DNA from: Plasmodium brasilianum
Taxonomy: Eukaryota; Apicomplexa; Aconoidasida; Haemosporida; Plasmodiidae
Assembly: GCF_023973825.1 (NCBI RefSeq)
Contig: NC_090120.1
Coordinates: forward strand, 1,141,001 to 1,205,000
Direction: 5' to 3'
Length of the DNA stretch: 64,000 nucleotides
How positions within the stretch are numbered: the first letter of the stretch is position 1; each line of letters opens with the position of its first letter. The notes under the pieces are model-generated. The model was not told the DNA's origin. It was given only the letters and a program-made list of their open reading frames with translations, and did not search any database. Below, one piece after another: positions 16,114-42,665 of this stretch. The translations under genes and the position numbers were made by a program.

Positions 16114-19100
16114 GTGTATGAGTATGAGTATATGTATGTTTGTTTGTATGCGCGTGTACGAATGCTTGCCTGTTTATACGCCTGTTAGTATGCCTGTTAA
16201 CATTATGGAGGTGGGATACCCCCATGGCTACTACTCCCCACTCCTCAATGATCACATTTGTACATGCATTTTAATTGCACTTTTATTTTCATTTTTGTGA
16301 ACAAACAATTACGCAACTACGCAGATCAAGTTGACACTCGAGGAGATGAATAATTTGATCCCTTTCAATGAAGATAAGAAGCTGATCAAGTACCTCATTA
16401 TTATCCTCTACTTTGGAAATGATGTATAAAAGAAAAAGAAAAAAAAGAAATTACATAAATAGTTACAACCGCATGCATAGTTATATCCACACACAGAAGC
16501 ATTGCTTCTACATCGCATATACCCAAAGAAATACATGCATACAAAACTACATACTTGTATGTGTAAACTACCTACGCTTCTATATGCCTCAAGCACGCTT
16601 GCTCCACCTTTTCTTTTCTGAATAGATGTTCTGCTTAGAAAAGGAAAATTCAATATACATACAACTGATCTACGAACTGAGGCATTTGAATATTTTTCAT
16701 GCAATAATAGTTGCTTATCTCTCGGAAGAAAAAGCTGGTACACTGTGTTCCAGAAAGAATATGATAGGAGAAGAAACATTACAAAATGATTCATTAAGCC
16801 CTTATGAAACATTTGAAGATAAAAATGTTTATTTAAAATTTGCATGTACAAGTAAATGCAATATGAATGAGTTGGAGAATAACTTTTTAAAAAAATTTAA
16901 TAATAAATATTTTGGTGATTTTCATGTTACAATAAGATCTTATGAGCATTATACCTTAGGAATATTTCTAGTTTCCTTTATGACATCTGTAGTATTCATT
17001 GTAGGTGAGCTCCATAAAGAAATGAAAAAAATCTATGTATACAGAATTTTTAAAAATATATTCATAAAAAATTATACGCACAATATTACCAAGTATTACA
17101 CTTTCTGGAACACCAGGCTTTACGCTTTTGCCCAATATGAACCTGAGTGTGTGCTCTTGTTTAATAAATACAACTTATATGAAAAGTACAACCTTACTAG
17201 ACATATTAGCGATTCGCTCAGGGAAAACAACTTGGAAAAGTTTGGAAGGTTGAATAACATGAAAGGGGGAAAAACGGAAAAAATGGCAAAAACAGGAAAA
17301 CACCTAGACAAAGCGGAAAAACATTGTGACAATTCTGGTGATAAATGTGAAGAGGGAAGTCTGAACAACAACGAGGAATTAATGAAGTACTTTTCCGCTG
17401 AAAACCATAGCTGCTTATGTGACAAAAACATGATCAACAAGCCAAAAGGAGAATTTGTAGTAAGCGAATATTTAGAACTGAGGTCGAATTTTATGAATAA
17501 AATAAAAAGAAGTAATACAGAGTTATATGAAAAGATGAAAAATTATAATTTTTTTAACGACCCTTTAGAGATATCTTATAAAACAAGAAATTTCGAAAAG
17601 GAAAAATTAATAGACATATGTAAAGATATAAAATTTGAGAAAAATGGTTTATGTTTATTTGATAAGTCGAGGATAATATTAACTTATTTGTACTTACTAT
17701 CTACATGGCCTGATTACATATTTTATGTTGTTAGTCCACTTGTTTTTATAAAACCCCAAAAATATTGTGATCAATATGATATACCATTAGTATTAAATAA
17801 TATGCTAAAAAATAGATATTTCTATAAAAAAAGCTCAAAAATATGTATTAATTATGCATTTGCTCACTTTATATCATCTGGAAATAAAACAAGTAATTTG
17901 GTGGTCACAGCAAAAATTAGTAGTACCATGGTAAACATAAGTAAAAGTAATCTGCTACTCATCTTACCACTAATCAAAAGAGTTGATATATTAGATTATT
18001 CAAAAAATAATGAATATGATATAAAGGAAGAAATAGTAAATGAATATTTCATTTTAGGAAATTCTTATACCCCAATTAATATCATATCTTACAGTTTTAA
18101 AGATTATGATCAGATAAAAAAAAATGCACATATTACAATAGCAGGGGCTTTCATAAAACAACAGGGCAAAAAATTTGTTACCTATCATAGAATTAGTAAA
18201 AAATATAATGAACATGTTCAATGCTCAGAAGGTCATTTCTTTCAATTTAATGGTCAAACTTTATGTTTTTGTGATATTTTAGCAAAAAAAAATAGGAATA
18301 ATAAAAATTGTCTATATCCGTTTTGTGAACAAAGTAAACAATTCTGCTATTTAAATGAAGAATGTGTTGATGGAAAATGCGTTTGCATTGAAGGCTACTC
18401 AAGAAACCCCATGAGTTTTTTATGTGAAAAAAATAATGAATGTATTCTTCATGGACAACAGACTTGTAAAGGTCCAGGCAAATGTGTGCTAACCAATAAT
18501 CGTTACATCTGTTTATGCCCAATTCCATACGTTCGAATATTAAATAATTGTCTTCATCCCATCAAAGGAATTATAATAGGCTTACGAATCTTCAGTAATT
18601 TCGACAGTGACCATTCCAATGACGAGGACGATGCTTCCAAAAAGGAAAAATTTTATACAAATGTGTTCGGGTCTATATCTGAGTATATCAAGGCCACCAT
18701 TGATAGTGTACTTCCCAAAAGGCGAAACATATGCAAGCGCGTGGCACACGTTTACTAACGCGTAGGAAACTCGGTTATGCAGGCGCTAGCTCTATTATCG
18801 TTTTGCTATAGCTTTGCTACCGTTTTTCTATCCTATCAACATCGAACTGCTCTTTTTTTTTGCTCGTCTTTACTTCGTTTTTCCTACTTTTATTACTTTA
18901 TTTTCCCCTTTTTTTCCTCCTCCACGCAGACCGTGAAACACGACCTCAAGCCAAGGATGTACGCCATGCCGATTAGAAAAATGAAAGACGGAATTAAGGC
19001 AACGATAATAATAAATGAAAGGAATGACCCCACTGAACCGACACCCATTGAAGTATTTAGCATTTTTTTGAATCAATTTCGTGATTCAACATCTGTCTTA

Positions 19101-19382
19101 AACAATGGATTCTATTCCTATTTTGCTCGCTTTACTTATATAGAATACGTAAAATCTTTTTCTAAGAATGATGATCTTTCTCCCTTTTATGACAGCTTCA
19201 TGAACTACTTACCTAACTTTTTCATTAAAATTTTCGAAGTAGATACCTTCAACAATATATCAGTTGTTGTTTGTACCAATTTTGTTATTTTAATTATTGT
19301 TGCTTGTATGGTACTCTTTTATTTTTTATATTTGTTCATCAAAATTAATTTTATTCAAAGAGAACGAGTGAAGGCATTTTAA
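12919..19382 (+). CDS. Large Plasmodium membrane protein with EGF-like module, function unknown
   Basis: Five exons: 12919-14816, 15334-15910, 16325-16423, 16626 to about 18740, and 18930-19382. Donor GTGAGA at 14817 and a pyrimidine-rich acceptor at 15333 join the first two in matching phase (YIRE|STMYSKK), so what look like separate ORFs form one gene of about 1713 residues. The donor ending exon 4 is uncertain: 18740 or 18749, both phase 0. Residues 1-18 are a signal peptide (MVIAIFIFLLFELVSS). Residues about 310-375 form an Asn/Ser/Asp repeat. A Cys-rich block at about 1391-1503 contains an EGF-like pattern (CVDGKCVCIEGY, then CKGPGKCVLTNNRYICLCP). A single membrane segment lies at about 1673-1702, with a short basic cytoplasmic tail. 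The topology suggests a cell-surface or secretory-organelle type I protein. I do not recognise the family. Confidence 0.75.
13846..14031 (+). repeat. Asn/Ser/Asp-coding repeat in the large membrane protein
   Basis: Tandem copies of agtagtaacaacgataac plus a longer unit including gatttcatcagcaacagc, encoding SSNNDN and DFISNSSSNNDN repeats. It is coding low-complexity sequence typical of Plasmodium surface-exposed loops. Confidence 0.9.
15985..16145. repeat. TGTATG/TGTATA microsatellite in an intron
   Basis: A long imperfect hexanucleotide tract (tgtatg and tgtata) inside the second intron of the large membrane protein gene (15911-16324). Confidence 0.9.
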
Positions 19383-19908
19383 GGGGGCACCTCACTGTAG
19401 GATACAAACTATCAACAAGATGGACAAATTGGCAAATTTTAAAGAGAGAAAGAAAATACATGCATGTGAACGAACATGCATGTGCACAAACATACGTGTG
19501 AACATACATACATGTGAACATACATACGTGTGAACATACAAGCGTACATATGTATATATTTGTGTGAATGGACTTTTTTTTTACTTTTTGTAGAATGTCT
19601 TCAGGGTCGAGTAACCCCCCCATTTGTTATATAAAAAAGATGTAAAATGAAGAAATGTGAACTTGCATTTATTCTTTTTAATGTGCAATTTTTCTAGATC
19701 TACATATTTTTGCAAACAGTGTTACCATGTTTCACTTTATGCCATTTTGTTTTTTCATTCATATTTTCGACCATTTTTTCGTTCATTTTTTTGATCATTT
19801 TTTCGATCATTTTTTGGTGCATTATTTCCCCCCTTCTTCTTTGCTTAATGCAAAAGCTCCACCATTTCAACACATTTTCGAATTATATTAACATGTACAA
19901 AAATATTA

Positions 19909-19948
<40 letters not shown>

Positions 19949-19986
19949 TTTGAGCCTGTTAATGAGCATTAATCATCTCACTGTAA
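19383..19986. other. 3' flank of the large membrane protein gene
   Basis: It contains an imperfect acatacatgtgaac repeat at about 19455-19550, a ttttttcgatcat repeat at about 19760-19815 and a TA/poly-T run at 19906-19950. I see no coding sequence. Confidence 0.5.
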
Positions 19987-20691
19987 TCAATTTTCGGTTA
20001 CGCTGCTAACTCCAGTGATGGTTTGTCTCTGACCGTTTTGCAGTATATTAGTCGAGGGTGGGGGAACAAACAAGCATACAATACATCATGCAACAGAGAA
20101 AAATGAAAATATATATATAAGAAGTATTGTGCATACGTTTTTGTGCTTACTCTAAGTTTCATCTTCTTTTTCTTCTTATACTTAATGAGAGGTAATACCC
20201 TTCCGCATCTTTATTTGCTCATCACATATGAAGCATCGGAAAAGATGCAGTATATAATTTTTCAATAAGAAAAAGGGTTTACTTGCAGCTAGGGTAACAC
20301 ATAACAAACATATAAGATATATAACCGCCCCCCTGCATTGTTCAAAAATAATTAAGGAATACATAACACATAGCCATTATAATAGAAACATAAGGTGCTA
20401 ACTTTAAAAAAGAAAAAAATACATATTTTTATTTCTATCATTGCTTTAAAAATTAAACCGTTATACATGCACACATATCTACTAATTCTTGATCCTTTTA
20501 TTTACGTATTTTTCTGTTTTTAAATAATATAGCCAAGAAAATGAAGCATATGCACATAAACATATTGCCTTAACTGCATGCTGACACAATACACTTACAG
20601 CTAAGAATAATTTTAACAATTTTAGCCCCGTTAAAAAGCGAAAAAAAAATATATAAAATGAGCATACAAATGAATAAATAAATGAAAACAT
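19987..20691 (-). CDS. Possible small spliced membrane protein (about 80 residues), unknown
   Basis: Four putative minus-strand exons fit together: 20599-20691, 20283-20332, 20151-20208 and 19987-20028. The donors are strong (GTAAGT, GTAAAC, GTAAGC), the acceptors are AG, and the phases agree throughout. The translation has a hydrophobic N-terminal half (FLTGLKLLKLFLAGGGYISY), then MCYPSCKCGRVLPLIKY, a run of five Lys, and RQTITGVSSVTEN before a TGA stop. It resembles no family I know. The exons are short and the first is low in complexity, so the model could be chance. Support comes from three good donors in a row and from a local rise in sequence complexity. Convergent orientation to the preceding gene is plausible. 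Confidence 0.35.
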
Positions 20692-20699
20692 ATAAATTA

Positions 20700-21439
20700 A
20701 CATAAATAATATAAAAATAATTATATAAATAATTATATAAATAATTATAAAAACAAATTTAAAAATATTTTAATTATTATTAAAATATTATTTAAATAGT
20801 ATTCTGTTTTGTAATTTTTTTTTTTTTTTTTTTTTGTGTACACCAATTAATTTTTTATTTGTTTATTTAATTGTTCATTTGTTTAATTTTATAATTTTTT
20901 TGTTTCTTATGTGTTTTGTATATCTTAGTTCATTTGTTTGTTAATATATGCTTGTTAATTTCATTCTTATTTGCCTATTTATTAGCTTGACTTTTTAATT
21001 TATTATTTTTCGTTTTGTTGTCACGTTTTTCTAGTACTTACTCTCTCAGTTAATCCTTTTTTTTGTTGTGTATCGATTGGTCTTCACATTTCGCATTGTG
21101 TATTTTTATGTTTGTGTTTACGAACTTTTTTGTTATGCGGGCATATGTTTATATATATGTAAATACTAGTTTATGTTTACATCAGTATGTATGTATGTTT
21201 ATGTAAAAATGTCTTTAACCTTTTGATAACTATTTATGAACATGTACATTTGTCATTTATGTCTGTATTGTATTACTGTTTTTTCGTTTGTTTGTTAGTT
21301 TTTTTTTTTTTTTTTAAGCCCCCCCCCCCCTACAAATGATATCCCTTTTTTTTGTGGTTTTTGTTTATATAGGGGATGTAGTTCTATTTTTCTTGAAGAT
21401 TTTTTTTGGGAGAATATTTCTTTTTAGAAATATTTAAAA
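20700..21439. other. AT-rich intergenic region upstream of the telomerase RNA
   Basis: T-rich sequence with ttgtttgtt-like words, a poly-T run (about 20818-20835) and a T/C run ending in ten C at about 21300-21330. It probably contains the promoter of the telomerase RNA gene. I see no coding sequence. Confidence 0.5.
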
Positions 21440-21470
21440 AAAAATAAAAAGGAAAGAAAAAATGAATGTG

Positions 21471-21500
21471 GAAATCCTTGTTTTGCATGGGAAGGAATTC
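21471..21500 (+). other. Hairpin 5' of the telomerase template (putative boundary element)
   Basis: Arms 21471-21479 (gaaatcctt) and 21492-21500 (aaggaattc) pair with 8 of 9 positions matched and one A.A mismatch, around a 12-base loop. It ends three bases before the template. This fits a helix that stops reverse transcription, but the function is inferred. Confidence 0.55.
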
Positions 21501-21503
21501 TCA

Positions 21504-21514
21504 CCCTGAACCCT
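21504..21514 (+). other. Telomere-repeat template
   Basis: The sequence ccctgaaccct is an exact complement of the C variant of the GGGTTYA repeat. Its length (11 bases: one 7-base repeat plus a 4-base alignment region) is usual for telomerase templates. Confidence 0.75.
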
Positions 21515-22009
21515 CGAAGTAACCGATTGTGTGCTCATTAGTAACTGAATAATTGCGATAATGAAAAATTTAGGGAAAAGAAAACGATAGCTTATGGTTT
21601 GATTCCTTATTTTTTTCGTAGTGATTATTCACGAACATGAGGTCGTATATTGGATTAGGGCGGAAGTTAGCAACCAACAGTGCGCAATCATTTGAAGCTC
21701 ATAGGCTTTCTTTGTTAAATTAAGAAAACAGAAAGATCCATATACCTCAATCGGTGTACTTAATGATGCGCTATTATATCTCTCGTGTCGACCAGGAGAT
21801 AGACCTACTTTTTTCTTTTATTCAAATATAATTTCAAAATTATGAAGGTCGACGCATATATTTTGAGGTTTATATTTGGTAAAAGAAAAAGTACACACAC
21901 TCGAATAAAATATATATATTACATATTGTTTTATGAGTATATATTTGGTGGTGCGCACACCGAATGTATTCCCATTAATAAGCGTTTTATATTATTTGTT
22001 CGAAGTAAG

Positions 22010-22069
22010 AAGGAAAATTTTACAAGACAATTATATATACATATATATTTGTCTTGTAAAATTTTCCTT
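22010..22069 (+). other. Long perfect inverted repeat (hairpin) in the telomerase RNA region
   Basis: Arms of 21 bases at 22010-22030 and 22049-22069 are exact reverse complements around an 18-base TA-rich loop. The outer flanks can extend the stem by five pairs (agtaa with ttact) past a two-base bulge. It would form a very stable stem in the transcript. Confidence 0.85.
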
Positions 22070-22091
22070 TACTAATGGTCGGAATCTATCG

Positions 22092-22155
22092 GCATGTTTT
22101 TCTTTCAAAGGGTTTATTTTTTTAAATATATTCTTTGAAGGAAAAAATGTTTTGT
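22092..22155 (+). other. Second hairpin in the telomerase RNA region
   Basis: The word tttttctttcaaag near 22096 pairs with ctttgaaggaaaaa near 22131. This gives a stem of about 14 pairs with one mismatch, directly after the longer hairpin. Confidence 0.55.
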
Positions 22156-22385
22156 TTTCATGTTGCAGTTAACTCTGCGTGAATACAATTACAGGTTGTA
22201 TCATTCCAGGCATGAACACGGTAGACTAGAAAGGTCCAGATGGCAACTCTACATATTTGAGGTGTTATCGATATTCGCTGTACCTTTATAAATAAATTCT
22301 AAAAATAAATATTTTTTCTTAGAATAGATTGCACATTATTTAGAAAAAGGGGAAGAAGGGTTAAATTATTTATTAAAAAAAAAGC

Positions 22386-22695
22386 AAACTAAAATTTTAA
22401 TTATAATCCTCATGGAATAAATAAAATTTTAATTATTATCCTGATGGAATAAATAAAATTTTAATTATTATCCTCATTGGAATAAATAAAATTTTAATTA
22501 TTATCCTGATGGAATAAATAAAATTTTAATTATTATCCTCATTGGAATAAATAAAATTTTAATTATAATCCTTATGGAATAAATAAAATTTTAATTATTA
22601 TCCTCATTGGAATAAATAAAATTTTAATTATTATCCTCATTGGAATAAATAAAATTCTAATTATTATCCTCATTGGAATAAATAAAATTTTAATT
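22386..22695. repeat. 33/34-bp minisatellite
   Basis: About nine tandem copies of a unit reading ggaataaataaaattttaat followed by tattatcctcatt. Copies alternate between cctgatgg (33 bases) and cctcattgg (34 bases) forms. It sits inside the candidate telomerase RNA and may be a species-specific insertion. Confidence 0.92.
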
Positions 22696-22737
22696 TGCTT
22701 TTACTTTAATAAAAAAATAATGCAATTTGGATTTGCC

Positions 22738-22815
22738 ACAAAGAGTAGTAGCAGAGAAATTATTCCATACTTATTATGAAATATAACTATGGAATTATTT
22801 CTGTCTCTCTCGTCC
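22738..22815 (+). other. Hairpin after the minisatellite, telomerase RNA region
   Basis: The words aaattattccata and tatggaattattt pair over 13 positions with one mismatch, enclosing an AT-rich loop. They stand in a block of complex sequence between the minisatellite and a poly-T run. Confidence 0.5.
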
Positions 22816-23091
22816 TCTGTTTTTTTTTTTTTTTTTTTTTTTTTTGTTGTGCAAAAAATTAATTTTTTATAGGGGGGGAGGGGTTGTAGTGGTGGTATTC
22901 CTTCATATATAATCTATTCTTTATGTGAAGCGATAACCACCTCTTTTTATTGAACAACTTATGAACATAATAATAATATGTACATGATGCTGTTAAGTAG
23001 TTTTATATTGAAATACATTTCTATTACAGTGTAAAGATTTATTTGTAAAGGAATATATTAAAATAAGGAACTGGGAGATAATAAACTTTAT

Positions 23092-23128
<37 letters not shown>

Positions 23129-24564
23129 CACTTTTAAGAAGGCAGAAAGCGTCTTTTAAGCATATGAAATATATGCTAATCCAGAAGAAGATTATATATT
23201 TTTTTTTCTTTTTTTGCAGATGTGTTTATATGTATGTAATACATAATATATACAGTCAGTGTGTAAATAATTTTTATTGTTGTTTTAGCCTATATGTAGA
23301 GCATTCCCCATTGATGATAGTAGTGTAACCAATTATTCTCAGAACCTTTTTGTGTCAATATATGTACGGATTTACCTTAAATTTTTAATATATTAACTTG
23401 TTTAGTTTATCCTTTTTTTTTTTTTTTTTTTTTATTTTGGCCTTTTACATATTTTGTAACATTTCTCATTTTATTATTAATATATTTTTTTTCAAAACTG
23501 TAAATTTTTCCTTTTTTTTTAATTTTTTAGTAAAACTACAAAATGACATTAATGATATATTTTTCTTTATTATTCCTAAAAAAAAAAAAAATGAAAAAGC
23601 ATTTCTGCTTTTTTTTTTTTTTTTCTTTTTCTTTTTATATATTGTTGTACACCCTTTAATCTGTGAGGGGGAACAGTATGCTGTTTTTAATAAATTTAAA
23701 GAGGAAAATATCACATGGTCTTAAAAACTTGTAAATAGATAGCTTTTTTAAAAAAAAAGAAAAGACAGAAGTACGAAAGAAAAGATATTCTATTCTGTCC
23801 TTTTTGTTATAGCGCTATACTATAAAATAAATTATGACTGAGGAAACTTGCTCCCTCTTAACTGTTTTTCGTTGATCTTAAGAAATGACTAGGTACCACT
23901 TGTTATGACGTAAATAGTGAACATACCTAATAACAACATGTTAGTCTTTCTTTCTTTAAAATGATGTACCACAAATCAGTCAAATCAGGTAAGTAAATAA
24001 ATGGGAAAGAAAACGAAAGGGAATTTTTGCCTTTATAAAGCATTCTTTTTGTGTTAATGAAAAATTATGCATATCTTATAGAAGTATATAAATTAAACAG
24101 CTATAATGCACATATACATACATACATAGTTCACACATGTCCGCATATATACCCAGGTGTATGGTATGTGCCCCCTTCAAGAGTCAACATTTGCGCTTTT
24201 CTGTTTTATTTTTTTTAAAAACGGGGAAAAAGTAAATGATGAGAAATTGGTATGTGAATGGTACCTAAAATGTACGTAAAATAAAAAATTGTTATTTCTT
24301 TTTGTCCCCTAAAATACGATCGATTAATTCCGGAATAGGTTTAAATGATGAAGTTCAATTAAATGATCCTTTTTATATATGTTTATAGCCCGTAAAATAT
24401 GGAATATTTTTTATTTTTTTTTTTTAATTGTTTTTACTTCTTTATTCAGAGGTATAAAATTTCAAATATAATCATTCTCATTAACATATGACCAGGAAGC
24501 TTCCTTGAACAATTTTTTCTTTACATCCTTTATTTATAAAGCAGTTGGGTTGAAACAAAATAAA

Positions 24565-24598
<34 letters not shown>

Positions 24599-24654
24599 TA
24601 TATTCACATAATTTGACCTTATTTGATACAATTTTACTAATTTGATATAATATG

Positions 24655-24805
24655 TTGCAGGTTGAAATAATTTGAATTAATTTCATATAATTTGAATTAA
24701 TTTAATATAATTCGAAATAATTTGAATTAATTTGAATTAATTTGAATTAATTTAATATAACTTGAATTAATTTAATATAATTCGAAATAATTTGATATAA
24801 GTCTA
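24655..24805. repeat. Short-unit repeat (atttgaatta type) upstream of RecQ
   Basis: Imperfect tandem copies of aatttgaattaatttgaatt and the variants taatataattcgaaataa. It lies in the probable RecQ 5' UTR. Confidence 0.8.
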
Positions 24806-24929
24806 TATAAATTGCCAAAAATTGCTACAATTTGACACAATTTGTAAATACCCCTCTTGACAGTACTCATTTTAAGAAACCCGTAATGCCCCATATAGTG
24901 ACCTGCCAAAATAGCCAAATTTTACAAGC

Positions 24930-24956
24930 ATGAATATCGAAGAGGACAAAGAGTAA
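24930..24956 (+). promoter_or_regulatory. Upstream ORF (8 codons) before RecQ
   Basis: The frame atgaatatcgaagaggacaa continues through one Glu codon to a TAA. It ends five bases before the RecQ ATG. A ribosome scanning from the cap would meet it first, so it could reduce RecQ translation. The effect is inferred. Confidence 0.4.
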
Positions 24957-24961
24957 AAACC

Positions 24962-26914
24962 ATGGGGGAAATAAACCTGATAAAAGAAGGCACATTTGAT
25001 AATAAGGAGGATGAGATGTCAAATAGGTTATTAAATGAGTACAAAAACAAATACGCTAATATAGACATCCTTAAAGCAACAACCATTTTGAAAGAATATT
25101 TCTCCTTTAATGAGTTTAAAACAAAACAAATAGAATGTTTAAATGCAATTAAGAATTTTGAGCATGTTTTAAATATAACACCTACAGGGGGAGGGAAATC
25201 ATTAATATATCAAGTTATTCCTTTACTTATTGGAGGTATCAGTATAGTGATTAGTCCATTAATTTCATTAATTCAAGATCAAATACTATCTTTAAAAAAA
25301 CGAAATATTATGGCTGAAACTATTAACAGTTCATTGAAAAAAAAAGAAAACGAAAATATATTAACTTTGTTAAAAAGTTATAATGATTGTAATATAAAAG
25401 TGTTATTCATTACCCCCGAAACAGCAACAAGTGAATATTTTATTATGTTAATACAAGAGCTTTATATGAATCAAAAAATTTCACTTATTTCAATAGATGA
25501 AGTTCATTGTATTAGTACATGGGGATGTGAGTTTAGAAAAAGCTATAGGAATTTAAACAGAGTTTTGAAAACTTGCCCTTTTGTTAGGATATATAGTTGT
25601 ACAGCTACGGCTACTAAGTCTGTTGAAAATGATATTATACTTAATTTAAATTTGAATCAAGATAAGAATAATAGTCTTCGAATTGTTAGAACCCCATTTA
25701 ATAGACCTAATTTAAAATACGTCATAGTATATAGTGATTTATTAAAAATAGAAAAAAAGAAAAGTGTGTTAGATATTATTAATGAAAAAAAAAATATGAA
25801 CAAAATTGGTATTGTATACTGTTTTAAAAGAAGTACATGTGATGAAATATCCAAATATTTAAGAGAAAAAGGTTTACAAGCTTTGAGTTACCATGCTGGA
25901 TTGACAAACAATGCTAGGAAAAGAATACAGGAAAAATGGGTTAAAGGTAATGCAAAAATTTTAGTTGCAACCATAGCATTTGGTATGGGTATAGATAGAA
26001 AAGATGTATCATATATTATACATTTTAACCTACCCAAGTCTATAGAAAATTATTACCAAGAGTCAGGTAGGTCAGGTAGAAATGGAAATATTTCTTTTTG
26101 TTATTTGTATTATTCCAAAGAAGATGTAGAGAAGTTATCATATATCATAAAATGTAGCTACGCCAATTTGGATATGCATGATATCGATGTAGAAAAAAAA
26201 TTCGAAAAAGAAATGTACAAATTGGAATGCGTTCATAATATGTGCATTAACGAAAAATGCATCAGGTCCCAAATTCTTAGCTACTTTGGGGAGACACGCC
26301 ATAAAAATAGCGACAGAAACGGGGGTGATGGCGGTGGTGGTAACGGCTATAGGATCAGCGGCAATGGTAGTGGAAATAACTTCAGTAATGATATAGCTCG
26401 CAACTATTTAGGGAACGCACACAACGAACTGGGAAATACGCAGAAGGATGAAACCTACTGCTGTTCATACTGCTTCGACATAAGAGGATCAAAAGACAAA
26501 ATTCAACAAGTGTTAAAGTTGTATGAGCGAAAAAATTTGAATGCGCAATTTGCACAGGAGGAGAAAAGTTATAATAGCAAAAAAATTAATCCAAATGTGA
26601 ACCCAAAGAAACATATACTAAGTGATGATTCATATTCAGACAAGGAACAGGAATTAAATGAATATAAATTAACCAACAAAAAAATTAAAGGTTTTGTTCC
26701 CTTTCAAAGTGCATCATCCATAATCTCGAAGGAAGTAAGAGATAAGGGAATTATTGAAGTAATGAAAGAACTGGAAAGAAGAGAGGAACTAATGGAAAAT
26801 AAACTTGAACAGGAATCAAAAGATAAAAGTAAAATGTATAACACACCGTTACATTGCGTTAATTTTAGAAGGAAGCCCACATTTTCATCTTTCAAAGTTC
26901 CCAGGAAAATATAA
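24962..26914 (+). CDS. RecQ-family ATP-dependent DNA helicase
   Basis: Single exon, 650 residues. Superfamily 2 motifs appear in order: Walker A TPTGGGKS (73-80), SPLISLIQDQ (98-107), Walker B IDEVHCISTWG (178-188) including the RecQ aromatic-rich loop, CTATAT, and then YHAGL, VATIAFGMGIDRKDV and YYQESGRSGRNG of the second RecA lobe. A zinc-binding domain follows (CVHNMC, CIRSQILSYFGE, CCSYC), interrupted by a Gly/Asn-rich insert. There is no clear winged-helix or HRDC domain, so this is the shorter of the two Plasmodium RecQ types (RecQ1/BLM-like). It unwinds recombination and replication intermediates in the nucleus. Motif II reads DEVH rather than the usual DEAH. Confidence 0.93.
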   Translation: MGEINLIKEGTFDNKEDEMSNRLLNEYKNKYANIDILKATTILKEYFSFNEFKTKQIECLNAIKNFEHVLNITPTGGGKSLIYQVIPLLIGGISIVISPLISLIQDQILSLKKRNIMAETINSSLKKKENENILTLLKSYNDCNIKVLFITPETATSEYFIMLIQELYMNQKISLISIDEVHCISTWGCEFRKSYRNLNRVLKTCPFVRIYSCTATATKSVENDIILNLNLNQDKNNSLRIVRTPFNRPNLKYVIVYSDLLKIEKKKSVLDIINEKKNMNKIGIVYCFKRSTCDEISKYLREKGLQALSYHAGLTNNARKRIQEKWVKGNAKILVATIAFGMGIDRKDVSYIIHFNLPKSIENYYQESGRSGRNGNISFCYLYYSKEDVEKLSYIIKCSYANLDMHDIDVEKKFEKEMYKLECVHNMCINEKCIRSQILSYFGETRHKNSDRNGGDGGGGNGYRISGNGSGNNFSNDIARNYLGNAHNELGNTQKDETYCCSYCFDIRGSKDKIQQVLKLYERKNLNAQFAQEEKSYNSKKINPNVNPKKHILSDDSYSDKEQELNEYKLTNKKIKGFVPFQSASSIISKEVRDKGIIEVMKELERREELMENKLEQESKDKSKMYNTPLHCVNFRRKPTFSSFKVPRKI

Positions 26915-33703: not shown

Positions 33704-35410
33704 TTAAAAATTTTTTACGTATTCCCGCTGCATTTTATAATCATTCAAGGGTAAGTCTAAACAACCAGGAGCAACACTATCAACATCTATGATAGCTTTT
33801 TCTAAAATTTCAGAACACTGCATAGTTGATGCGTAATTTCTAATATATACATCTAATTTGTTTCTAAATATTCTATGACCTGGCATCCCTTTAAGTATTC
33901 CTAAAATAGGTTTCAATAATTCAAACGCACTTGGTAAATTATAAAAAATGGAATTCTGTTCTAAATACACTTTATATGCTTCTAATACTGATCTCCTACT
34001 ATATGCACTACTTGGAGCCTTTTCATTATAAACCAACGTATCTGCTTGTGATAGAATAGTGATGTTTTCCATACATGCTCTACCTATCATAACGCCATAT
34101 AACGGATTTATATGATAATTTTCAACTAACTCGTAATTATCATTATTATTATCATAACAATTATTATTATTAGTAGAAGTAGTACTATCAGTAGTAGTGG
34201 TAGTGGTCGTGGTAGTGGGCGTGGTAGTTGTTGTGGAAAATGTACTTGTAGTAGTATCATTATTATTATTTTTATTGTTACCATTATTAGCACCATTTAA
34301 TTTGTTACTCTGTGGGATGTAGCCATTTAATAAAGCTACTGCTTCTTGTATAGACTTTACACCTCCATTTAATGTAAATTTTATATTAGGATAAAATTTA
34401 CACAAATCATATACTTTCTTATATTCTAATGGGGGTACACTTCTATTTTGTTTTGGGTCTAAACCTTTTAACCATGCTTTTCTTGCATGGACAATAAAAT
34501 GATTGCATCCTGCTGATGATACGGTTTCAATAAATGATTTTAAAAAAGAAAAAGAATCATATTCATCAACACCTGTTCTTATTTTAACTGATACAGGAAT
34601 TTGTACTTTTTTTTTTATTTCATATACAATATTTCTAACATGTTCAGGTTTTTTCATTAAATATGCACCAAAAGCTCCTCTATTAGCTACTTTTGTACTT
34701 GGACATCCAACATTTAAATTTATTTCATCATATCCTGCTTGTTCTACTAAAATAGCTGCTTCAGATAACGATATTGCATCACATCCTCCTAATTGACAAA
34801 CTATTGGATGCTCATTTTTGTTAAAACCTAAATATTCGTCTAATTTATTTAAGTTATACAATAACGTATTGTCAACTATCATTTCTGTCCATAGTTGTGC
34901 TTTTTTCGTTATAATTCTTACCAATGCTCGAAAATGTCTATTCGTTACATTAATCATAGGAGCTACTTGTATAAAAGGTATTGCCTCACTTCTACCTTTT
35001 CGATAGGCATCATTTAAACATGTACTTATGTTTTCAAATTTAAATACATTCTCACATGGGCGTAACACTTCATCGACATTATTTTCTATTAACATGGTCA
35101 TATTGCTTTCTTTGCTTTCTCTCCTTTCTTTGTTTCCTCTTTTTTCTTTTTTTCTTTTTTTCCCATTTATTCTTATTGTATTCTTGTAATTCACACTATT
35201 GTTATTAAAACCATATAATAAATCCCTTTTACCCTTTGTATAAAACCATAATTTTTTTTTTTTGTTTTTATGAAATTTTTCTTTATCTATGAAAAAATAA
35301 TATACTCTTACGAGAGTATATCTTCTTTCGTTCAATTTTGTTTTACCATGATTTTTGAAATAGATAAAGTATATGCTTATGATCAAACTTCTTAGAAGTT
35401 TTATTTGCAT
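33704..35410 (-). CDS. tRNA-dihydrouridine synthase, DusA type
   Basis: Single exon, 568 residues. From residue about 145 it is a flavin TIM-barrel Dus: FIQVAPMINVTNRHFRALVR, QLGGCDAISLSEAA, and INLNVGCPSTKV with catalytic Cys236, then VSVKIRTGVDE, HARKAWLKGLDPKQNRSVPPL (a DusA hallmark), FTLNGGV and GVMIGRACMEN. It reduces uridine to dihydrouridine in the tRNA D-loop using FMN and NAD(P)H. The first 100 residues are an extra hydrophobic then very basic region (LLRSLIISIYFIYF, KKRKKEKRGNKERRESK), which may be an organelle-targeting leader. A Thr/Asn-rich insert of about 70 residues, including a run of Thr, interrupts the barrel between GGVKSIQEAVALL and GVMIGRAC. Confidence 0.92.
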   Translation of the reverse strand: MQIKLLRSLIISIYFIYFKNHGKTKLNERRYTLVRVYYFFIDKEKFHKNKKKKLWFYTKGKRDLLYGFNNNSVNYKNTIRINGKKRKKEKRGNKERRESKESNMTMLIENNVDEVLRPCENVFKFENISTCLNDAYRKGRSEAIPFIQVAPMINVTNRHFRALVRIITKKAQLWTEMIVDNTLLYNLNKLDEYLGFNKNEHPIVCQLGGCDAISLSEAAILVEQAGYDEINLNVGCPSTKVANRGAFGAYLMKKPEHVRNIVYEIKKKVQIPVSVKIRTGVDEYDSFSFLKSFIETVSSAGCNHFIVHARKAWLKGLDPKQNRSVPPLEYKKVYDLCKFYPNIKFTLNGGVKSIQEAVALLNGYIPQSNKLNGANNGNNKNNNNDTTTSTFSTTTTTPTTTTTTTTTDSTTSTNNNNCYDNNNDNYELVENYHINPLYGVMIGRACMENITILSQADTLVYNEKAPSSAYSRRSVLEAYKVYLEQNSIFYNLPSAFELLKPILGILKGMPGHRIFRNKLDVYIRNYASTMQCSEILEKAIIDVDSVAPGCLDLPLNDYKMQREYVKNF

Positions 35411-39545: not shown

Positions 39546-42500
39546 ATGGGATTCCTCAAAATTGGAACGCCATTAAGCTGGGAAGAAGTGCAACATGTAA
39601 AATCTCTTATACGATTGTATGGTATACTGCAGTTTGTTCATACATACAAGTGTAATAAGGATCGAGAAGATGAAAATATAATGTTTGGGGATGAAATAGA
39701 ATATATCATTATAAGGAATGATGAAACATTGAAAGAATCATCAGCTCTTTTATGTGCTACAGATTTAATTGATGAAATGATGAATTTAGAAAGTGTTACT
39801 GATTGTCAATATGGATCTCATTGGACACCTGAATACTCATCCTTTACGATTGAAGGGACACCATCCGTACCTTTTAAATTTGATATTAATTCTTCATCAT
39901 TTGTTGAGGACTGTATGAGAATAAGGAGAAGTAAATTAAATAACGTTCTAAGTGCAATCAGCGGAGTTCGAGCAGTTACATTACCATGTTTCCCTAACAG
40001 CCTTTTGAATAATAGTCTTCTTATGGCTAAAAGAATAAACCAGGAAAATAGTAAAAAGAAAAATGAAAGGATTAATAAAAATGATTTGGTAGAACCACCT
40101 GCTATAGAAAACATTCATTTAAAAAAAATAGAAAAAAAAAATAGTGAAAATGAAAAATGCGCAAACATGCATAGTGAATATAAAATTACTTTTAATGATT
40201 CTAATCAAATTGATATGGATGAAAATAAATCAACACATTTTGTAAATTCAGATATAACTTGTCAAAAAAATGATGATATATTAATGCAAGATATATATGC
40301 GGATGAAGGAGAATGTATACATGTAGAGGAACTTAAGAAAGAAGAAAAAAGAGATGAAAAAGAAGGAAGAAACGAAGAAATGAAAGAACATGAACAGACT
40401 ATGTTCATAAATTCGTTAAAAGAAGATTCTATATTTGAATGTGAATTATTCAAACCAGAAAATATAAACAATTATAGTAATAGTTGTTTAATTACAGATA
40501 TGGTGATAAGTCCACATGCTAGATATATCACGTTAACACAAAATATAAGAAAAAGAAGAGGAACGAAAATTATTTCTTTTAATCCGATTTATATGGATAT
40601 TTATACAGAACAAATGGATAACTGGAAATTAGCTTTAGACAAAAGTGACAACAGACTTTTTAAAAAAATAAAAAAAAAGTATGTTCTAGAGGATCACTTG
40701 ATTTGGAATAAATCCATGTCCAACAGGAAAAAGAGGGAGGGAAATGTTCATGCAAGTGGTGAAACCACGCTTGACCACTTAAGTGCATCCATAAACGAAG
40801 AAACTACCTCAAAAAAAGAATTAAAAATAGATGAAAAAAAATATAATGGTAGTATTGTATATGGCGGAATGGATACGAAGCAAAAGGATATAGATAGCTA
40901 TTTAAATTATAAAGAAAAAGATGAAAAGGAAAATTTAATGGATATTGCTATGAAAAATAGCTTGTTTAGCAATATAGACGATGAAGAAGATTATATATAT
41001 GTATATGATAGAAAATTTATTGAAGAATATTCAGAAATATGCAAAAATCCAATAAAAAATTATGTATATTTAGATGCCATGTTTTTTGGAATGAGCATGT
41101 GTTGCCAACAATTAACTATGTCCTTTCCAACAATTGATGATGCAAAATATGTATATGATCAGCTAGCTGTAATAGCACCCTTATTTTTAGCCATTACTGC
41201 ATGTACTCCATATTTAGGCGGGTATCTCACTGAGACAGATACAAGATGGAGAGTAATTTCAAATAGTGTGGATTGTAGAACAGAAGAAGAGTTAGCTTAT
41301 ATATCCAAACCTAGATATTCAGGAATATCTTTATATATATCAGATGAATTACCTTTAAAAAGGAATTATTATTTTTATAATGATATAGATGTAGTTCTAG
41401 ATAAAAATGTATACGACAAATTAAGAAAAGAAAATGTGGATGATTATTTATCAAGACATATTTCTTCCTTATTTGTAAGGGATCCAATGGTTGTATTTCA
41501 GGGATCTTACAGTGAGAAGGACATTATATCCATTGAAAAGAGATTGGATTATCATATGTCTATGCCCCCCAACCCCCAAGAAAACAAAAAAAAATTTGAT
41601 AAAATTAAAAAAGGGAAGAAAAGAACAACTTATACAAGAATGCAAAAGGAAAAAGAGGATGTGGTGGTAGATAAAAATAAGAATAAAAAAAGTAATATGA
41701 ACAGTATATATCTAAGTGATAGTTTCAACTTTTTAGAAGATTATGAAGAAAAAGTACTTTCATCCCATCAACATTTTGAAAATTTTCAAAGTACCAACTG
41801 GAATAGTGTCCGATTTAAACCCCCACCTATACTTGATAATCATTTTAATGGACCAAGCTCTATTGGATGGAGAGTAGAATTTAGAACACCAGATATTCAA
41901 ATAACAGATTTTGAAAATGCTTCTGTTGTTACTTTAATTATGGTTTTGTCTAAATTTATTTTAAAAAAAAGACTTAATTTATATATTCCTATGTCTTTGT
42001 TAGAAGAAAATTTGTTCAGATCAGCACACAGAGATGCTATAATAAAAGAAAAATTTTATTTTCGCACAAATTTAAATTATGATACAACAGATAATGAAAT
42101 AGAGGAAAAAACTATATACGATATATTTTTCAATGAAAAAAATGGAATATTCTTTTTATGTTCCAAATATGTTGAAGAACAATATAATGAAGGCGCATTA
42201 ACACAGACAGCAAAAAATAAAATAGATGAATATATTGAATTTATAAAATTAAGAAGTTGTGGGAAAATATGTACAGGTGCAGCTTATTTAAGAAATTTTA
42301 TTATGAACCATCCTTCTTATGAAAAAAATTCATATATTAATAGTAAAATAAATTATGATATATGTAAATTAATAGCAGATATAGGAAAAGGTTTAATAAT
42401 TCCACAAGAATTATTAGGTGTTTTTGTTGATCCATATAAAGAAAGAATAAAAAGTGACTTAAGACAAATTAATGAAAGTCAGTATCTTAAATCATTAGCC

Positions 42501-42665
42501 TACAAATTTATATCAGGAGAGGATTATACACAGTACCTTCTTCTTAGTGAGGTTATTAAGGATGACCAAGACTATTACACTTGTACTAAAAGAACAAATT
42601 ATGAAGAATCTACGGATAATCATACACTTGAGTTTGGAAAGAAACTGTACCTATTAAGCGCATAG
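39546..42665 (+). CDS. gammaGCS: Gamma-glutamylcysteine synthetase (glutamate-cysteine ligase catalytic subunit)
   Basis: Single exon, 1039 residues. It carries the eukaryotic GCL catalytic signatures: MFGDEIEYIII (46-56), YGSHWTPEYSSFTIEGTPS, VYLDAMFFGMSMCCQQLTMSF, PLFLAITACTPYLGGYLTETDTRW, YISDELPL, and SSIGWRVEFRTPDIQITDFENA, the glutamate/Mg-binding region. The C-terminal helices match the family (LRSCGKICTGAAYLRNF). The enzyme makes gamma-glutamylcysteine from Glu and Cys with ATP, the first and rate-limiting step of glutathione synthesis in the cytosol. It is far longer than the mammalian enzyme (about 640 residues) because of charged low-complexity inserts at residues about 160-310, 375-480 and 675-745. 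No modifier subunit is visible in the window. Confidence 0.96.
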   Translation: MGFLKIGTPLSWEEVQHVKSLIRLYGILQFVHTYKCNKDREDENIMFGDEIEYIIIRNDETLKESSALLCATDLIDEMMNLESVTDCQYGSHWTPEYSSFTIEGTPSVPFKFDINSSSFVEDCMRIRRSKLNNVLSAISGVRAVTLPCFPNSLLNNSLLMAKRINQENSKKKNERINKNDLVEPPAIENIHLKKIEKKNSENEKCANMHSEYKITFNDSNQIDMDENKSTHFVNSDITCQKNDDILMQDIYADEGECIHVEELKKEEKRDEKEGRNEEMKEHEQTMFINSLKEDSIFECELFKPENINNYSNSCLITDMVISPHARYITLTQNIRKRRGTKIISFNPIYMDIYTEQMDNWKLALDKSDNRLFKKIKKKYVLEDHLIWNKSMSNRKKREGNVHASGETTLDHLSASINEETTSKKELKIDEKKYNGSIVYGGMDTKQKDIDSYLNYKEKDEKENLMDIAMKNSLFSNIDDEEDYIYVYDRKFIEEYSEICKNPIKNYVYLDAMFFGMSMCCQQLTMSFPTIDDAKYVYDQLAVIAPLFLAITACTPYLGGYLTETDTRWRVISNSVDCRTEEELAYISKPRYSGISLYISDELPLKRNYYFYNDIDVVLDKNVYDKLRKENVDDYLSRHISSLFVRDPMVVFQGSYSEKDIISIEKRLDYHMSMPPNPQENKKKFDKIKKGKKRTTYTRMQKEKEDVVVDKNKNKKSNMNSIYLSDSFNFLEDYEEKVLSSHQHFENFQSTNWNSVRFKPPPILDNHFNGPSSIGWRVEFRTPDIQITDFENASVVTLIMVLSKFILKKRLNLYIPMSLLEENLFRSAHRDAIIKEKFYFRTNLNYDTTDNEIEEKTIYDIFFNEKNGIFFLCSKYVEEQYNEGALTQTAKNKIDEYIEFIKLRSCGKICTGAAYLRNFIMNHPSYEKNSYINSKINYDICKLIADIGKGLIIPQELLGVFVDPYKERIKSDLRQINESQYLKSLAYKFISGEDYTQYLLLSEVIKDDQDYYTCTKRTNYEESTDNHTLEFGKKLYLLSA

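Follow-up and report, generated by a model that had tools for sequence, protein, structure and literature searches.

The plus strand from about position 21440 to about 23.6 kb is very likely the telomerase RNA gene of a P. malariae-like parasite, the ortholog of PF3D7_0918500 of P. falciparum. The original prediction of a telomerase RNA at this place is supported by an exact template, by the gene neighbourhood of the known malaria telomerase RNA, and by a TERT domain and GGGTTYA telomeres in the same genome; in addition, the region 21800-22300 folds beyond its shuffled counterparts. The stretch of DNA analysed, referred to below as the window, is 64 kb long (C7:1141001-1205000, contig NC_090120.1) and belongs to an assembly of 31.4 Mb in 43 contigs. 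The gene, its template and the neighbouring genes used as anchors are located as follows.

21440-23600, + strand: probable telomerase RNA gene, its ends estimated from the 2148-nt length published for P. falciparum (PMC4183507)
21503-21514, + strand: telomerase template ACCCTGAACCCT, exact sequence, about 1.7 CCCTRAA repeats, with the variable R being G at 21508
24962-26914, + strand: RecQ helicase gene, ortholog of the P. malariae 'ATP-dependent DNA helicase Q1'; synteny anchor
33704-35410, - strand: Dus; synteny anchor
39546-42665, + strand: gamma-glutamylcysteine synthetase (GCS); synteny anchor, P. falciparum identifier from PMC6272303
43550-44284, - strand: nucleosome assembly protein (NAP); synteny anchor, P. 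falciparum NAPS identifier from PMC8941266

The locus

The template lies in a gap of 5579 bases (19383-24961) that contains no open reading frame (ORF) of at least 150 aa in the ORF list of the window, in agreement with the 5.6 kb first estimated. The non-coding character proposed for 21440-23980 also holds, as the longest ATG-initiated ORFs starting inside this interval are 79 and 77 aa long and the longest stop-free run is 111 codons. Nothing independent supports the end coordinates 21440 and 23980 originally assigned to the gene, and its extent is probably close to that of the P. falciparum RNA.

As had been claimed, the gap is adjoined by the RecQ gene, which starts 3.45 kb downstream of the template. 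The link between telomerase RNA and RecQ goes no further than this adjacency. Loss of PfBLM in P. falciparum is reported to make telomeres slightly longer (PMC6044543), an effect that does not require the two genes to be adjacent. Over its full length, the RecQ protein of the window is 98% identical to P. malariae helicase Q1, versus 69-71% identity to the helicases of P. ovale curtisi and P. relictum, which places the genome in the P. malariae clade.

On the other side of the gap lies a 710-aa ORF (16626-18758) without a Pfam or NCBIfam match, whose C-terminal part is cysteine-rich by eye. It is followed after 18 bases by a 201-aa ORF (18777-19382) that has no Pfam match and includes a membrane-like segment. 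Read by eye, the two ORFs are perhaps one spliced surface protein gene.

The template

The word CCCTGAACCCT occurs exactly on the + strand at 21504-21514, where it was first noticed, and is present in a single copy within the 64-kb window. Extended by the A just before it, the word includes in full the template ACCCUGAACCC reported for P. falciparum (PMC5550746), and it is complementary to more than one telomere repeat. None of 100 dinucleotide shuffles of the window contained the word, so that its rarity by chance stands for the window; on the scale of the genome it does not, since the word is found isolated at four places and is no proof when taken alone. The GC content of the segment 21501-21700 is 0.38, a value reached in 18 of 879 overlapping segments outside the 13 listed ORFs, those with the template included. 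In single-sequence folds, the mean unpaired probability of the template is only 0.39-0.58.

According to a review of 2025, the telomerase RNA of Plasmodium has no conserved template region (PMC12457308). This statement conflicts with the P. falciparum report (PMC5550746) and with the template seen here, and is disfavoured because the present template contains that of P. falciparum.

Synteny with P. falciparum and P. berghei

Gene identifiers in P. falciparum follow chromosome order in steps of 100. The order in the window is RecQ (24962), one ORF (30171), Dus (33704), GCS (39546) and NAP (43550). The telomerase RNA of P. falciparum is given as PF3D7_0918500, of 2148 nt on chromosome 9 (PMC4183507), and took the place of the deleted gene model PFI0905w (PMC6484455). 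The corresponding numbers are PF3D7_0918600 for PfBLM (PMC6044543), PF3D7_0918900 for gamma-GCS (PMC6272303) and PF3D7_0919000 for NAPS (PMC8941266). The RecQ of the window is taken to be the PfBLM ortholog. Between RecQ and GCS there are two ORFs of at least 150 aa, which fits the P. falciparum numbering, whose two middle genes are taken here by number alone. Compared by identifiers and on the RecQ side of the gap, the synteny that had been proposed as a check is therefore found: the RecQ-ORF-Dus-GCS-NAP order fits the numbering of PF3D7_0918500, 0918600, 0918900 and 0919000, with RecQ/PfBLM next to the RNA and GCS and NAP beyond. In P. berghei, the numbers reported for the telomerase RNA (PBANKA_081945) and GCS (PBANKA_081980) are likewise close.

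The template thus stands in the same neighbourhood as the known malaria telomerase RNA, and the locus is therefore very likely the ordinary copy of the parasite. It is synteny that decides the identity; the word alone does not.

The template word across the genome

Searching CCCTRAACCCT across the 31.4 Mb genome returned seven sites broken on the 3′ side and eight broken on the 5′ side, two of them in both sets, and control patterns read backward gave two matches in each search. Telomere-type arrays account for the sites on C1, C22, C32, C37 and at the start of C7. Outside telomere-like arrays, the word is found at four places, namely the studied site on C7, C9:748872, C12:1506722 and C14:2733469. 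Within 3-kb loci, the words on C14 and C12 are inside frames open for 1003 and 918 codons, respectively. The copy at C9:748872 is an isolated CCCTAAACCCT next to nine consecutive C and about 30 T, in no long open frame. Only the studied copy is preceded by an A. Because isolated copies and control matches exist genome-wide, the template word alone is a good lead and not proof.

Other template registers are common by chance. Among copies broken on the 3′ side, the register TRAACCCTRAA gave 73 matches versus 44 for its backward control, 21 of the 73 being by position in telomere-type arrays, and the register AACCCTRAACC gave 35 versus 6, with 31 of the 35 in such arrays. Genome searches for longer isolated forms of the template returned, by position, only sites of telomere-type arrays (3, 0 and 9). 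A DNA search of the genome for a second copy of 21440-22380 found none, its two extra matches being the inverted repeats of the region itself. The original prediction had named a template at another locus as evidence against it. No better site was found in the CCCTRAACCCT register, and a second telomerase RNA is rejected for that register; the two further registers were covered on one side.

Predicted fold of the RNA

Folding was scanned over the gap in 36 segments of 200 bases on both strands, each compared with 60 shuffles. On the + strand, segments 21801-22000, 21951-22150 and 22101-22300 reach z scores of -5.81, -8.57 and -3.87, in keeping with the stem-forming sequence first described. 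The two template-containing segments (z -0.06 and -0.79) are not significantly structured, and this part of the description does not stand. The minus strand is equally structured at the inverted repeats (z -4.76 and -10.08), and 22101-22300 has a z of 0.01 on the minus strand versus -3.87 on the plus strand. Outside the proposed gene, strong folds are found at 19401-19600 (z -4.37) and 24651-24850 (z -4.73), both over tandem repeats. The second coincides with an AT-rich 10/50-bp tandem array at 24608-24844, just 5′ of the RecQ start. Within the proposed gene, the following elements are predicted.

21475-21496, + strand: short hairpin with a TCCTT/AAGGA core, core pair probability 0.73-0.90 in four folds
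21546-21631, + strand: long imperfect hairpin 3′ of the template, four helices with pair probability 0.94-0.98 in all four folds
21806-21893, + strand: long hairpin arm, helices 0.78-0.95 in the three folds reaching there
21901-22003, + strand: hairpin arm, probability 0.89-0.98 in the two folds reaching there
22009-22070, + strand: near-perfect inverted repeat, 29-nt arms 97% complementary, within the segment of z -8.57 (21951-22150)
22097-22146, + strand: hairpin with a 17-bp helix, probability 0.97
22369-22713, + strand: arm with a closing stem of about 30 predicted pairs, helix probability 0.86-0.99 in the single fold that extends to it
22762-22795, + strand: hairpin ATTCCATA/TATGGAAT, probability 0.98, located 24 bases 5′ of a T26 run

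The short hairpin ends 6 nt 5′ of the template, a position that makes it a candidate template boundary element, which is suggestive only. The 66-nt stretch around it has a z of -0.10, with 91 of 200 shuffles folding as well or better, and in its fold the outer end of the pairing extends to 21504 and includes the first two bases of the template. The arm at 22369-22713 encloses a 33-bp tandem array (22390-22695) of 9.4 copies, partly organized as a 65-bp dimer. All four matches to a 39-letter word of the array, searched genome-wide with up to three mismatches, are at this site. Should the RNA extend across this array, the repeats would make up an arm of variable length.

Rfam returned no match in the window at gathering score and thus no telomerase family, and the 19 matches below gathering score that the gap gives at an E cut-off of 10 include none from a telomerase family. 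Matches to mir-297 and rox2 were far below their gathering scores and were rejected. A relative among viral contigs was also dismissed, as the 14-base pattern matched at least 120 stretches, which were taken for chance matches of a short word. RNA polymerase III was considered as the transcribing enzyme; seven T runs of at least five are present within 21440-22900, which speaks against one long transcript of this polymerase.

TERT and telomeric repeats

The RNA-binding domain of TERT (PF12009) has matches above cut-off in two stretches of C14 and in none of 14 control genomes. The telomeres consist of CCCTRAA arrays (GGGTTYA), so that the genome holds both a TERT, identified by its RNA-binding domain, and the repeat that the template specifies. 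In P. falciparum, the G of the template ACCCUGAACCC appears to specify C or T, and the same G template is reported together with the same mixed repeats (PMC5550746).

Exact CCCTRAA units were counted in twelve stretches among the matches listed, other units being dropped. The main count covers nine ends and leaves out C1 (an interstitial array at an assembly gap), C41 (its order copies that of C7) and C37 (degenerate). In exact repeats at these nine telomeric ends, among the matches listed, the variable position is T in 131 of 218 cases and C in 87, and 81 of 169 adjacent pairs are alike, versus 87.5 +/- 6.0 in shuffles. Adding C37 and C41 gives T in 177 of 316 cases among the matches listed, and 103 like pairs out of 225 versus 114.8 +/- 7.1. 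C is no more frequent than T, and the counts give no hint of blocks or of correlation between neighbours, as expected if G is read anew as C or T in each repeat. These counts represent one consensus per end; recombination between subtelomeres duplicates patterns, and older repeats that mutate from C to T would raise T.

Two arrays are of interest for the assembly itself. The telomere-type array at C1:1386622-1386918 is found 184 kb inside C1, ends at a run of 10 N and contains an internal near-duplication. Because this internal array stops at the run of N, C1 has the look of a scaffold whose parts were joined across a chromosome end. Over about 15 repeats, the starts of C7 and C41 share one succession of T and C repeats, as if a telomere-proximal stretch had been copied or the two contigs were alleles.

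Alternative readings of the locus

The region could be a long 5′ leader or promoter of RecQ in which the template word is a chance match. It is on the same strand as RecQ, its word recurs in isolation at three other genomic places with two backward-control matches in each search, and the surroundings of the template are not unusually folded. Such a leader is nonetheless very unlikely, given that the word contains the P. falciparum template and sits in the slot that holds the telomerase RNA in P. falciparum and, by synteny and transcript data, in P. berghei. Moreover, among the four isolated copies, it is the sole one that is preceded by A, lies outside a long frame and lacks a C run.

A decayed or second copy, with the working gene elsewhere and perhaps bearing A at the variable position (GGGTTTA), would accommodate the T found at 131 of the 218 counted positions, among the matches listed, while the template here has G; the isolated CCCTAAACCCT on C9, outside long open frames, also counts in its favour. 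That site is, however, flanked by 9 C and about 30 T, and the A-variant on C12 is inside its 918-codon open frame. A DNA search found no second copy of region 21440-22380 beyond its own inverted repeats, and P. falciparum combines the same G template with the same mixed repeats, which makes a working gene elsewhere extremely improbable. The telomerase RNA gene on the + strand remains the preferred reading.

A model for repeat synthesis

In the proposed mechanism, the telomerase RNA would be transcribed from the + strand, adopt a fold of successive arms, associate with TERT and offer ACCCUGAACCCU for copying. The AGGG end of a chromosome would pair with the 3′ UCCC of the template; copying of AAGUCCC by TERT would yield TTCAGGG, after which the enzyme would shift for the next round. 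Nine healed chromosome ends of P. falciparum began with GGGTT (PMC5550746), so that full AGGG pairing is not needed for the start. At the variable G, TERT would set C or T in each repeat, as stated qualitatively for P. falciparum (PMC5550746).

The sole variable base of the template is G while the counted telomeres carry more T, and the mixed repeats are best explained if TERT places C or T opposite this G afresh each time. It is about an even bet that the pair acts as a built-in randomiser, in which T is favoured over C opposite G, independently in each repeat, as a fixed RNA-TERT property from P. falciparum to the P. malariae clade.

Relation to known telomerase RNAs

The telomerase RNA of P. 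falciparum was reportedly first described by Chakrabarti and co-workers in 2007. PF3D7_0918500 resembles the present locus in its template and in an identifier directly before PfBLM, with GCS and NAPS beyond; the comparison covers template and identifiers, the 33-bp array and the exact ends being unmatched. Five P. falciparum ESTs are reported to map to the template-containing 5′ end (PMC2695484). The P. berghei gene PBANKA_081945, compared here by identifiers alone, is annotated from transcript data and synteny to P. falciparum, and its northern signal is described as strongest in late trophozoites and schizonts, with an expected size of 2 kb. The telomerase RNA of Paramecium is similar in that one RNA yields two repeat types differing at one position, and unlike in lineage, repeat and template. 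McCormick-Graham and co-workers (1996, 1997) are said to have traced its variable repeats to misincorporation on a single RNA.

As anticipated at the outset, the gene itself is probably not new: it has been described in P. falciparum and P. berghei and predicted, according to the literature, in several species, and public databases may well annotate it already. The additions made here, the count of the variable base and the 33-bp array, are modest. Two broad surveys of telomerase RNAs are said to have failed in Apicomplexa (PMC9841428). Such RNAs are difficult to identify, and an ortholog located through synteny adds a further sequence for a covariation model. The locus also makes it possible to test how one template base gives two repeat types; if the randomiser is real, a single RNA gene would write a degenerate telomere.
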